Positions 5,895 to 53,854 of a DNA stretch of 64,000 nt are shown here, piece after piece. Origin of the DNA: Pontibacter pudoricolor (GTDB lineage Bacteria > Bacteroidota > Bacteroidia > Cytophagales > Hymenobacteraceae). The stretch spans positions 1,054,001-1,118,000 of the forward strand of contig NZ_CP048106.1 in the NCBI RefSeq assembly GCF_010092985.1, in the 5' to 3' direction. The translations under genes and the position numbers were made by a program. Below the pieces are notes generated by a model. That model was not told the origin of the DNA. It worked only from the letters and a program-made list of their open reading frames with translations, and did no database searches. How positions within the stretch are numbered: position 1 is the first letter of the stretch; each line of letters starts with the position of its first letter.

Positions 5895-6120
5895 GTTTAG
5901 CCTCTTTTCTTCAAGGTTTAATGTCATTACAAGGTTTTTAAATCTGTTTATTTTTCCGCTTTTGTGATTTTGAACATTCTTGAGACGCTAGTCGAAGAGA
6001 GGCTGCGTAGCTGTGAGAAATCTGGGTTCTATAGTTTGATATTTTACTTTCCGAACCAAGCCTTTTCTTTTATAGCTGCTTCTAATCCTGGGAGCTCTAC
6101 TCACCTATCGTTCTATAGTT

Positions 6121-6264
6121 GGCTTTGGTGCCCTCACGGCCGGGAGGCCTCGTCTTCGGGCATCGCGCTGCTGCTTTCTTGCTACCCTCGCTCTGCTCGT
6201 GTTGCCTGGCGGCACCGCAACAAAGCAAAGGCGCTCAACCCAAAGACTGCGATCAGCTCGATAG
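6121..6264 (+). repeat. Core repeat module, copy A
   Basis: GC-rich 143-bp unit running from GGCTTTGGTGCCCTCACGG to GCTCGATAG. Its reverse complement at 17808-17951 differs at only five positions that I can find. Contains internal complementary segments such as GGTGCC and GGCACC, so it could fold. Confidence 0.85.
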
Positions 6265-6330
6265 TAACTGCTTTAACTTTAGTTTGAAAGGCAATAGTTG
6301 CATCGACTTTTCGTGGCTATAGTTCCGTAG

Positions 6331-6350
6331 GGACAGGTCGAGACCTGTCC
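6331..6350. repeat. REP-like hairpin
   Basis: GGACAGGTC, two bases, GACCTGTCC: a 9-bp inverted repeat within the island. The counterpart in island B (17727-17746) is a full 20-bp palindrome. Confidence 0.8.
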
Positions 6351-6684
6351 GATCTTGGTCTGAACTATAGCCGCTAACTATAGCTAATTCAGATTTCTCC
6401 TGCAGGTCGAAATGACAAGTTGAAAAAACCGTAGCAGAAAGTCCCCCTTCAAATGGGGCAGGGGGATGACCAACGGTAACTATAGAACTTTTACCAAACT
6501 ACACTATAGCCAAAATTCCCCTCCTCGGAGGGGCAGGGGTGGGTTAAAACCAAAACTATAGAACTACAACCTAAACTATAGCAAAGGCCGAAAGCTCCTT
6601 CCCCTGTTCTGGGGAAGGGGCCTCGATAAAAGGAGAAGGCTGGGAAGTGGTAAAACGGCAACTATAAAACTATAGTTAGCAACC

Positions 6685-7269
6685 TCAAATTATATGCTTC
6701 ATTTCCTCCACATAATGCACCAACTCCGGGAAAAACAACTCAAAATCCCGGTGATACAAACTATAGTTTATAGTCAGCTCCTCTCCTGCCGTTTCCATTC
6801 CGGATTCAAAACTTGTGCGGCGGCTGAGCCCTGTTAATGCACGGCCTATCCCTTCTATTTCAGCATAACCAAGCAGCCAGTTCTGCTCCATCATGTACGG
6901 GAAAAAATACTGCACCCGCTCCGGTAAAGCTTCAAAATGACTGTTGATCAGACGATAGGTACGTTGGGTATAATTCTCTAACGACTCGTTAGCGAACCTG
7001 TCAAAATGCTTTGCCAGAAAATGGTCGAAATATAAATCTGCCACCACCGGCGCGTACTTTTTATACTTTTCGCGCAGACGTACTTTTGTTTCTAAAACTA
7101 CCGGGTGCGTATCTGTATAAGTATCGATCAGGCGATGTAGTTTTATGCCCCGGGCAATACCCGGACTATAAAGTGTTGCCTTGTTGCCTTTTACAGCATC
7201 CGCAATAAAGTTGCCAAGCAGCAGTTCTTCGTCGTTACCAGACAAGTATAAATGAGCGAGATAATTCAA
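6685..7269 (-). CDS. ACP phosphodiesterase (AcpH/DUF479 family)
   Basis: 194 residues, the usual length of the AcpH family, which removes 4'-phosphopantetheine from acyl carrier protein. The start codon is TTG (7267-7269), chosen because it begins the family-typical N-terminus MNYLAHLYLSGNDEELLLGN; no ATG fits. Conserved features: the early His and Asp of AHLYLS and NFIADAVKG, and the DLYFDHFLAKHFDRFANESLENYTQRTY region in the middle. An AACTATAGTT palindrome (7270-7279) touches the start codon and another (6668-6677) lies just past the stop. Some family members may have other esterase activity. Confidence 0.85.
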   Translation of the reverse strand: MNYLAHLYLSGNDEELLLGNFIADAVKGNKATLYSPGIARGIKLHRLIDTYTDTHPVVLETKVRLREKYKKYAPVVADLYFDHFLAKHFDRFANESLENYTQRTYRLINSHFEALPERVQYFFPYMMEQNWLLGYAEIEGIGRALTGLSRRTSFESGMETAGEELTINYSLYHRDFELFFPELVHYVEEMKHII

Positions 7270-17282: not shown

Positions 17283-17726
17283 AATAAGTAGCTGACAGTG
17301 GATGTTAACCTGCTCCCTACCAAAAAGGGATTTTGGTTATAGTTGTAGTGCTATAATTGCTGTGATCTTACCACACTCAACTCTTCGGCTTTAACTTCTA
17401 AATTGTTTCCCGGTAGGCTGAGGCGGGGAGTTTTTAGGCCATGGCTATAGTTTTACCCCTTCCCAGCCTTCCCCTAAAAACAGGGGAAGGAGCTTACCAG
17501 CCTTTGCTATAGATGGAGTTATAGTTTTATAGTTGCTGTTCTAACCCACCCCTGCCCCTCCCAAGAGGGGAATTTTGGCTATAGTTAAAGCTTAGCTATA
17601 GTTTTATAGTTTCTGTTTGTCATCCCCCTGCCCCCTTCAAAGGGGGGCTTTTCTGCTACGACTTGTCCATCTGTCATTTCGACGTTAGGAGAAACCTGAA
17701 TTAGCTATAGTTACAGCCTGTCGAGC

Positions 17727-17746
17727 GGACAGGTCGCGACCTGTCC
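17727..17746. repeat. REP-like 20-bp perfect palindrome
   Basis: GGACAGGTCGCGACCTGTCC is self-complementary, flanked by CCTACGG on one side. Counterpart of the hairpin at 6331-6350. Confidence 0.85.
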
Positions 17747-17807
17747 CTACGGAATTACAGCCACGGTAAAGCTAAGTGCAATAGAGCTTCACTTAACTAT
17801 AGTTTAG

Positions 17808-17951
17808 CTATCGAACTGATCACAGTCTTTGGGTTGAGCGCCTTTGCTTTGTTGCGGTGCCGTCAGGCAACCCGAGCAGAGCGAGGGTAGCAAGAAAGCA
17901 GCAGCGCGATGCCCGAAGACGGGGCCTCCCGGCCGTGAGGGCACCAAAGCT
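17808..17951 (-). repeat. Core repeat module, copy B
   Basis: Reverse complement of 6121-6264 with five substitutions over about 143 bp and no gaps that I can find. Flanks are also related but much more diverged. Confidence 0.85.
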
Positions 17952-18131
17952 AAATTGAAACTGTAGGTTCATAAAGCTCCCAGGATTGGAAGTGGCAATA
18001 GAAGAAAGGCTTTGTTCAGGTTAGAAGTAAATCAAACTATAGCACTCAGATTTCTCCTGACGTCGAAATGACAAAAGTGGAATTATAGGACTCATAAGCT
18101 CCCCGGCTTAGCTCGGAATGAAAAGAAAAAC

Positions 18132-39731: not shown

Positions 39732-41075
39732 ATGAATAAATCAGCTTTTCTTGAACTGATACAGAAAGCTTCGAGCATTACAGACCAGCAAACAGCGGAA
39801 CTGGAAAAGGTATCTAATGCCTTCCCTTACTGCCAGACTGCTCACCTGCTCCTTGCCAAATCTGCTTACGACAAGGGAAGCATGCTCTCCACGCAGCGCC
39901 TGCGCCGGGCGGCATCTTACGCCACCGACCGCCAGTTACTGAAGCGTGTCATTTATACCTCGCCCGTTCAAACCCCTGAATTCGACGAACCAGTTACTGC
40001 AGAGCAGGAGCCTATGCCGCAGGAAACTGAAACTGCAACTATAGCGCAACCAGAATCTATAGTTGAGGAAAGTGTAGCGCCAACTATAGATCAGGCGCAG
40101 GTTTCAGAAATTGAACCAAAAGCTGTTGCGATATCGGAAACTATAGCTACCGCTTCCACTGAAGCTGAAGATCAAACTACAGATACAGAAAAGAGTGCTA
40201 TAGTTGCTGAAACCGAGCCTTCTGAGGTTGAAATTATTACTGATGAAGAGCAGATAGAAAACCAGGCGGACGCCGTAGCAACTATCGCTACAGTAACTGT
40301 TTCTACCTCAGATTCGGAACTGGCAGACCTGCTAACTATAAGTAGCCTGAACACTTCTTTTACTGACTTGCTGGCACAAGACCCGGATCCTGAAATTACA
40401 GAGGAGCCTGTGGTAATTGAGGACCCGTTACTGCTGCATGAAACGGAGGCAGCACTGCAGGAAATTGAGCTGCAAGCTGACTTCCCGCCTCAGCAGGAAA
40501 CTATAGTTGACGTTACACCTATAGTGTCTCCATTCGTTTTCAGCAACGAGGTATCGGAAGTAATAACAGCCAATAACCCTGAAGATGCGCAGGTAACCTA
40601 TAACTATGATGAAATTGACCGCATGTACGCGGAAGATGCACTGGGTTACTGGATGGGGTCGAGCAGAATGGGCGAACAGCTGCTCCTTAAAAACGACTAT
40701 ACACGTCCTAAACCATATGCTTTCCATCCGGAGCTGATACTGGAGTATAATAAAACCCACGAACTGGAGAAAGCTATTCAGCCTGCTACCAACATACTAA
40801 GCGAGCAGCTGGATATTATTGATCAGTTCCTGAAACTGAATCCAAGGCTGAAAACGATGGCCAACATCAAGCTGAAAGAAGAGCCACAGGAAGATCTTTC
40901 GCTCCGTAATTCGAAGATGAAGAAAGGAATGGCCTCTGAAAACCTTGCTAATATCTTCTTAAAACAAGGTAAAGTTAAAAAGGCAATCAAAATATATGAG
41001 CAACTCATTTTGAAAAATCCGGAAAAAAAGAGTTACTTTGCTGAACAGATAGAAAAATTACAAAACTTAAACTAA
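39732..41075 (+). CDS. Protein with disordered acidic linker and TPR-like C-terminus
   Basis: 447 residues. N-terminal helical domain (MNKSAFLELIQKASSITDQQ, SNAFPYCQTAHLLLAKSAYDKGSMLSTQRLRRAASYATDR) resembles a small TPR-type unit; then about 80-300 is low complexity, rich in Glu/Thr/Val/Ala/Ser and very acidic; the end is again ordered (IDRMYAEDALGYWMGSS, LDIIDQFLKLNPRLKTMANI, MASENLANIFLKQGKVKKAIKIYEQLILKNPEKKSYFAEQIEKL: a TPR). No name given. The linker carries seven CTATAG motifs in 488 bp. One base before secG. Confidence 0.65.
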   Translation: MNKSAFLELIQKASSITDQQTAELEKVSNAFPYCQTAHLLLAKSAYDKGSMLSTQRLRRAASYATDRQLLKRVIYTSPVQTPEFDEPVTAEQEPMPQETETATIAQPESIVEESVAPTIDQAQVSEIEPKAVAISETIATASTEAEDQTTDTEKSAIVAETEPSEVEIITDEEQIENQADAVATIATVTVSTSDSELADLLTISSLNTSFTDLLAQDPDPEITEEPVVIEDPLLLHETEAALQEIELQADFPPQQETIVDVTPIVSPFVFSNEVSEVITANNPEDAQVTYNYDEIDRMYAEDALGYWMGSSRMGEQLLLKNDYTRPKPYAFHPELILEYNKTHELEKAIQPATNILSEQLDIIDQFLKLNPRLKTMANIKLKEEPQEDLSLRNSKMKKGMASENLANIFLKQGKVKKAIKIYEQLILKNPEKKSYFAEQIEKLQNLN

Positions 41076-53797: not shown

Positions 53798-53819
53798 ACT
53801 ATAGTTTACCTATAAAACG

Positions 53820-53854
53820 AAAGGCTCCTGAACTATAGTTCGGGAGCCTTTTTT
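53820..53854 (+). terminator. smc terminator with the palindrome as its tip
   Basis: GGCTCC (53823-53828) pairs with GGAGCC (53843-53848), enclosing GAACTATAGTTC (53830-53841), which is itself self-complementary, then T run. The dispersed palindrome forms the apex. Confidence 0.85.

Follow-up and report, generated by a model that had tools for sequence, protein, structure and literature searches.

Why does a single gene of Pontibacter pudoricolor carry seven copies of the palindrome CTATAG within 488 bp? The gene lies in a stretch of 64,000 nucleotides (NCBI RefSeq assembly GCF_010092985.1, contig NZ_CP048106.1, positions 1,054,001 to 1,118,000 of the forward strand), and this whole stretch is referred to as the window. 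A sequence-only reading had placed the copies in a low-complexity acidic part of the protein and attributed them to a process that writes the palindrome where the protein can bear insertions. All seven were indeed found there, in the middle of an ORF of 447 codons (39732-41075). The protein was laid out as a conserved N-terminal domain, a disordered acidic linker (aa ~79-289) and a conserved C-terminal TPR-like domain, and a Pfam search returned nothing beyond a weak TPR_7 match at the C-terminus, below the Pfam cut-off. The seven copies share the core CTATAG, their flanks differ, and not every one is a full AACTATAGTT. The features of the locus were as follows.

39732..41075, + strand: host gene of a 447-aa protein (ORF, weak TPR_7 match, orthologue alignment)
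39966..40598, + strand: variable linker, 633 bp (half-word counts, orthologue alignment)
40039..40044, no strand: CTATAG copy 1, Thr-Ile-Ala frame (motif count, as for copies 2 to 7)
40057..40062, no strand: CTATAG copy 2, Ser-Ile-Val
40084..40089, no strand: CTATAG copy 3, Thr-Ile-Asp
40141..40146, no strand: CTATAG copy 4, Thr-Ile-Ala
40198..40203, no strand: CTATAG copy 5, Ala-Ile-Val
40501..40506, no strand: CTATAG copy 6, Thr-Ile-Val
40519..40524, no strand: CTATAG copy 7, Pro-Ile-Val

When 114 sites were placed uniformly over 64 kb, 36 of 2000 placements put seven within 488 bp, which makes the crowding mildly unusual. It is therefore largely explained by genome-wide enrichment together with local tolerance; the genome-wide density is the main fact and the linker cluster is secondary. 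CTATAG occurred 114 times in the window versus a mean of 15.5 (S.D. 3.4) after shuffling, and none of 100 shuffles reached 114. The 4.34-Mb chromosome held 1164 copies of AACTATAGTT and 8 of its reversed control, and AACTATAG was counted 582 times on both strands of 304 kb versus 9.8 expected. Copy numbers so far above expectation are what is asked of a DNA uptake sequence (DUS/USS). The excess was confined to the genus. AACTATAGTT exceeded 1000 copies in 5 of 50 Pontibacter genomes, numbered 104-330 in three, and did not exceed 8 in 154 other genomes of the family; AAGTATACTT reached at least 80 copies in 22 of the 50 and at most 23 in the 154. Both spellings, counted whole, were thus restricted to Pontibacter among 204 family genomes. 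Twenty genomes of other genera, sampled at 15-20 kb each, had no TATA-core word, and viral contigs showed only a modest local enrichment of the word (153 loci examined of 193 reported). Our literature search, whose scope left subscription journals mostly outside, found no such word for Pontibacter or Bacteroidota. Two other words stood out in the window as a whole: CTAG was strongly depleted (30 versus 137), and TCCGGA was in excess (31 versus 8), as it was in several relatives.

Word counts in genome stretches brought out a third spelling, AGGTATAG, in addition to AACTATAG of the window clade and AAGTATAA, so that at least three dialects exist around an invariant TATA core. They are called AAC, AAG and AGG here after the bases preceding the core. 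Their 7-mers were enriched 19.6 fold (AAC), 13.7 fold (AAG) and 19.7 fold (AGG), and the base 3' of TATA was preferred in the order G>A>C>T in AAC and G>C>A in AGG, with A ahead of both C and G in AAG. The palindrome AACTATAGTT was enriched 296 fold, near the square of the half-word enrichment (386). Enrichment fell well short of the square for the palindromes of AAG (38 fold, square 188) and AGG (41 fold, square 390). The comparison with the squares therefore indicated an asymmetric unit some eight bases long, for which we infer the form A-R-S-T-A-T-A-R; its letters at positions 2, 3 and 8 vary with the dialect. The palindrome is common in the AAC dialect because G, the preferred base at position 8, makes a second copy on the opposite strand that overlaps the first; for the most part the palindrome is an incidental by-product of this overlap in one dialect. 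A palindromic unit of the HIP1 type was not found, in that AAC words are often palindromic and AAG and AGG words mostly read AAGTATAA and AGGTATAG. Of the proposed process writing the palindrome, the accumulation thus stands, the palindrome as its unit gives way to an asymmetric word with dialects, and "writes" is too strong.

The 50 Pontibacter genomes were grouped by their most enriched spelling in genome samples. Forty carried a dialect, one was borderline, and nine had none, as listed below; the calls of no dialect were based on 5 to 64 kb each (G202 only 5.4 kb; G200, G201 and G203 20 kb each).

AAC dialect: 5 genomes, including P. fetidus, which also has AAG at 5.9 fold
AAC and AAG about equal (mixed): 2 genomes, G192 and G207
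AAG dialect: 20 genomes
AGG dialect: 13 genomes, G205 being atypical with several xGGTATA and GGTATAA
Borderline: G007, AAG at 4.0 fold
No dialect: 9 genomes, G002, G024, G187, G193 and G200-G204

In a tree of concatenated proteins the mixed genome G207 branched next to the AAC clade but not within it (support 89); the placement of G192 relative to P. burrus and Pontibacter sp. Tf4 was poorly supported (46). The AGG genomes minus G205 formed a single clade (support 98) in a ComEC tree of 30 genomes, over which the word-less lineages were scattered. Dialects with a conserved core were hence distributed by phylogeny, as in DUS and USS systems, with G205 atypical and G192 and G207 mixed. Taken together, the data strongly support a genus-wide over-represented word, A-R-S-TATA-R, on Pontibacter chromosomes that exists in lineage dialects and is maintained and replaced by spelling. 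One AGG-type word also occurred head to tail: G003 contains a tandem array of AGGTAT of ~15 units (L118:1974-2064).

The host gene was then read against its orthologues, among which P. populi is the nearest named relative. The alignment, which left out the borderline genome G007, was good at both ends and poor in the linker. As the sequence-only reading had anticipated, motif positions turned over between species: the linker was crowded with CTATAG at differing positions in the window genome, P. populi, P. fetidus, Pontibacter sp. Tf4 and P. burrus, and seven other orthologues had none in the linker, except for one copy in G002. Conservation of the residues Thr-Ile-Val through other codons was not what the linkers showed, as Thr-Ile was encoded by ACT-ATA in 38 of 48 cases in five AAC genomes and the seven non-AAC orthologues had only 6 linker Thr-Ile pairs altogether. 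Half-words followed the dialect of each lineage (19 of 25 further loci were dropped, having no domain anchor match). The window linker contained 8 AAC words (AACTATA/TATAGTT), no AAG and no AGG, and the conserved flanking domains none. Over the linkers of the five AAC genomes we counted AACTATA 65, AAGTATA 1 and AGGTATA 0; over four AAG-dialect orthologues AAGTATA 10, AACTATA 0 and AGGTATA 2; over two AGG-dialect orthologues AGGTATA 5 and no other; and in the G002 linker 0. The linker therefore accepts any spelling that its lineage uses, and it is one of the tolerant places in which AAC words have accumulated. The idea that the motif gathers where the protein tolerates it also agreed with the aligned window genes, in which motif-bearing columns were less conserved in non-AAC genomes than the others (0.743 versus 0.848; as low in 0 of 500 circular shifts); gene by gene, this was seen in only 13 of 24 genes.

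Placement in the genome was permissive. The word occurs on both strands and in several sense and antisense reading frames, and is thus a feature of the DNA. AACTATA was denser in spacers (9.35/kb) than in genes (2.31/kb) of the window. Stretches of the five AAC genomes had CTATAG at 9.55 per kb in convergent spacers, 4.2 in co-directional spacers, 3.06 in divergent spacers and 1.21 in genes; a promoter or regulatory element was rejected, divergent spacers being the poorest spacers. CTATAG was spaced at ~1 per 560 bp (median 289 bp, CV 1.17). Three spacer features of the window illustrate the local density.

6029..6766, no strand: dense CTATAG spacer cluster inside a composite intergenic repeat (motif count, repeat comparison)
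17445..18042, no strand: second dense CTATAG cluster in a spacer, an inverted counterpart to the repeat at 6119-6674 (motif count, repeat comparison)
53819..53852, + strand: terminator-like hairpin, a 15-bp stem followed by a T-run, with AACTATAGTT at the tip (sequence; RNA fold -24.2 kcal/mol, z -6.95)

The spacer around the hairpin is intergenic and word-rich. The composite repeat of ~0.5 kb has two inverted copies (6119-6674 and 17500-17953 of the window), whose longest arms match at 96% over 146 nt and at 86% over 86 nt, with shorter arms besides, and is interspersed with CTATAG and GC-rich hairpin-like blocks. In general, inverted word pairs at 7-80 bp were not in excess over direct pairs, as the terminator pairs of DUS would be. 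The second replicons of three genomes, which are probably plasmids, were poor in the word (5.0, 2.6 and 2.5 fold, versus 13.7, 17.5 and 17.6 fold on the chromosomes). This is the scarcity in mobile or accessory DNA that characterises DUS and USS; in an island of G018, likewise, the word was only 2.1 fold enriched.

We further investigated whether the word is retained, which was scored as exact conservation of the current-dialect word between genome pairs in coding DNA and compared with one-off words. In each of the three dialects the word was kept at roughly double the rate of one-off words: 60/105 versus 57/191 between the window genome and P. fetidus, 52/86 versus 40/149 between P. burrus and Tf4, 31/52 versus 30/103 between G004 and G008, and 22/41 versus 28/123 between G003 and G011. 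Permuted control words had few sites and were retained at 5/17 to 10/17 in window pairs, the difference being weak against P. populi (10/17 for controls versus 80/112 for the motif). At sites identical in the mixed genomes G192 and G207, the window genome had lost 5 of 29 AAC words and 39 of 48 AAG words, and Tf4 had lost 4 of 26 and 30 of 41 respectively; one-off AAG words in this comparison were changed in 36 of 82 cases. Words common to the window genome and G207 were lost from G192 in 19 of 43 cases for AAC and 3 of 12 for AAG. Old-dialect words thus decay after a dialect switch. Sites at which AAG and AAC had been exchanged directly were uncommon between the window genome and the distant G004 (2/71) and reached 13/113 against G192; AGG and AAG shared sites more commonly (G003 versus G004, 9/35). 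One-off ancestral words had seldom given rise to a new copy (e.g. 6/92). The data therefore amount to biased retention and dialect-specific decay, and selection, recombination-borne drive or a writing enzyme could each yield them.

The closest known system appeared to be the DUS dialects of Neisseriaceae, which Frye et al. 2013 (PMC3630211) describe as having thousands of copies, several spellings, an invariant CTG core and a phylogenetic structure. As far as that text and PMC7371117, where DUS are reported as atypical in mobile DNA, go, the Pontibacter word is alike in its thousands of copies, its spellings by phylogeny, its invariant core (TATA in place of CTG), its permissive genic and intergenic sites (PMC3630211) and its scarcity in accessory DNA (PMC7371117). 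It differs in that Pontibacter has no type IV pilus ATPase and no excess of inverted pairs, and in that the word is known here from sequence alone. For these reasons we liken the word to DUS and do not file it as one; that it works like a DUS dialect system is a serious possibility, which we hold without calling it probable. Uptake signal sequences of Haemophilus and Pasteurellaceae have lineage variants. They are likewise short self-DNA words in many copies, and differ in sequence and in a receptor that, as described in PMC7811141 and PMC12616744, is sought among type IV pilins.

The explanation that we tentatively favour is a self-recognition word in dialects, read by a system that takes up or recombines DNA and is not related to type IV pili. 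A sequence-specific reader would favour DNA carrying the current spelling, and a change in the reader would drive dialect turnover. The most likely reader would be the pathway by which natural transformation takes up and recombines DNA; alleles that carry the word may then spread through being taken up preferentially, as with DUS dialects. The genus-confined excess, the clade-structured dialects, a linker that takes the dialect of each lineage, retention, the switch, the lack of strand bias, the high density in convergent spacers, the poor second replicons and a ComEC in every genome all argue for it. Against it stand the missing pilus ATPase, a ComEC that does not track the word, the lack of an inverted-pair excess, and a word that is denser and more clustered than uptake would need. 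PF00437 (PilB/PilT/VirB11-type ATPase) gave only fragments of <26 bits and ~60 residues in all 50 Pontibacter genomes, and control genomes were positive in 14 of 14 (13 over the cut-off). The classical type IV pilus uptake machine is therefore missing, and pilus-based uptake, for which DUS systems have this ATPase, was rejected. ComEC was present in all 50 genomes, word-bearing or word-less, and is therefore uninformative as a discriminator; transformation is possible and not indicated by it. A stop in ComEC of G009 and a frameshift in that of G022 had no clear effect on the word; the latter, near residue 440 (C1 near 2771217-2771876, L434), lies in a one-contig genome and could be a sequencing error. 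We know of no uptake experiment in Pontibacter. The machine would have to be a Bacteroidota type that works without type IV pili. Riemerella, also of the Bacteroidota, transforms with ComEC, DprA, ComF, RecA and four unfamiliar proteins (according to PMC8459023), and for this reason the absence of the pilus does not exclude uptake in Bacteroidota.

Alternatively, though in our view this is unlikely, an abundant protein that organises the chromosome or is related to transcription may bind the word, with each site under weak selection. Thousands of sites, retention above neutral and a preference for the chromosome over second replicons would suit such a protein; the permissive placement would not, since the word is most abundant in convergent spacers and disordered linkers and, among spacers, scarcest in the divergent (promoter) ones.

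In cyanobacteria, HIP1 and the alternate HIPs are highly iterated short words, replaced in some lineages, as Elhai 2015 (PMC4390886) describes. By analogy the word or its core would be a methylation site whose number is raised by bias in methylation-directed mismatch repair or by selection for such repair. The word is highly iterated, its AAC dialect is near-palindromic with the core CTATAG, and ~1 per 560 bp is of the order that the cited text discusses for HIPs. However, HIPs are described there as GC-rich palindromes tied to methyltransferases, whereas the Pontibacter word is AT-rich and, in two of its three dialects, asymmetric and mostly not palindromic. Nor does any member of four DNA methyltransferase families, profiled in the 50 Pontibacter genomes, track the word: PF01555 was absent from 4 of 5 AAC genomes and fragmentary in the fifth, PF00145 had no member common to all five, PF02384 gave only weak matches in the motif-bearing G189, G006, G013, G209 and G206 (best E 9e-18), and PF02086 was present in 13 of 50. 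A palindrome-specific methyltransferase from these families was rejected as the cause, and an origin of the HIP1 kind is improbable.

We regard a Chi-like recombination signal as similarly improbable. The word would then be the asymmetric octamer of a RecBCD/AddAB-type nuclease whose specificity drifts between lineages, with which an asymmetric 8-mer in dialects and accessory replicons poor in the word are consistent. No strand preference was found in the window, a single chromosomal region (103 versus 100), and no consistent one in 13 genomes; the strand bias along the replichore that marks Chi was not seen. Chi sites are also far sparser than this much denser word, which is enriched in spacers and not in genes. 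The likeness is that of a species-specific, over-represented octamer; Chi sites are also mentioned in PMC4390886.

Pure mutational or repair bias, creating the word with no reader that benefits, would account for the local clustering and the insensitivity to spacing. It is very unlikely, as it hardly accounts for a specificity of 8 bases that changes from one sister lineage to the next and second replicons of the same cells hold far less of the word. Protein-level selection for Thr-Ile-Val, with the DNA word as a by-product of codon choice, fits the linker reading of Thr/Ser/Pro/Ala-Ile, and this codon or peptide bias is refuted by the sense and antisense frames, by spacers being densest, and by other species whose linkers have few or no Thr-Ile pairs and their own dialect instead.

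Should a non-pilus system for DNA uptake or recombination indeed read the word, no earlier word system of this sort would be known from Bacteroidota as far as the literature was searched, and G192 and G207 would be living intermediates between two dialects. The case bears on how genome-wide words (HIP1, USS, DUS) arise and change spelling. A single genus offers at least three spellings, two mixed genomes and word-less lineages, at distances short enough for site-by-site alignment, so that birth, maintenance and decay of a word become directly measurable; comparing gene content and sequence across dialects makes the reader findable. Two further word excesses turned up in the stretches counted. 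ATATATA occurred 28 times versus 0.4 expected in a stretch of G203 with a GC of 0.59 (L158, G203:C1:3140001-3160000), probably a local array, and in a genome of a different genus of the family TTTATCC/TGGGATA occurred 35-46 times versus 3-5 expected (L128, G043:C2:1270001-1290000), possibly a local repeat.
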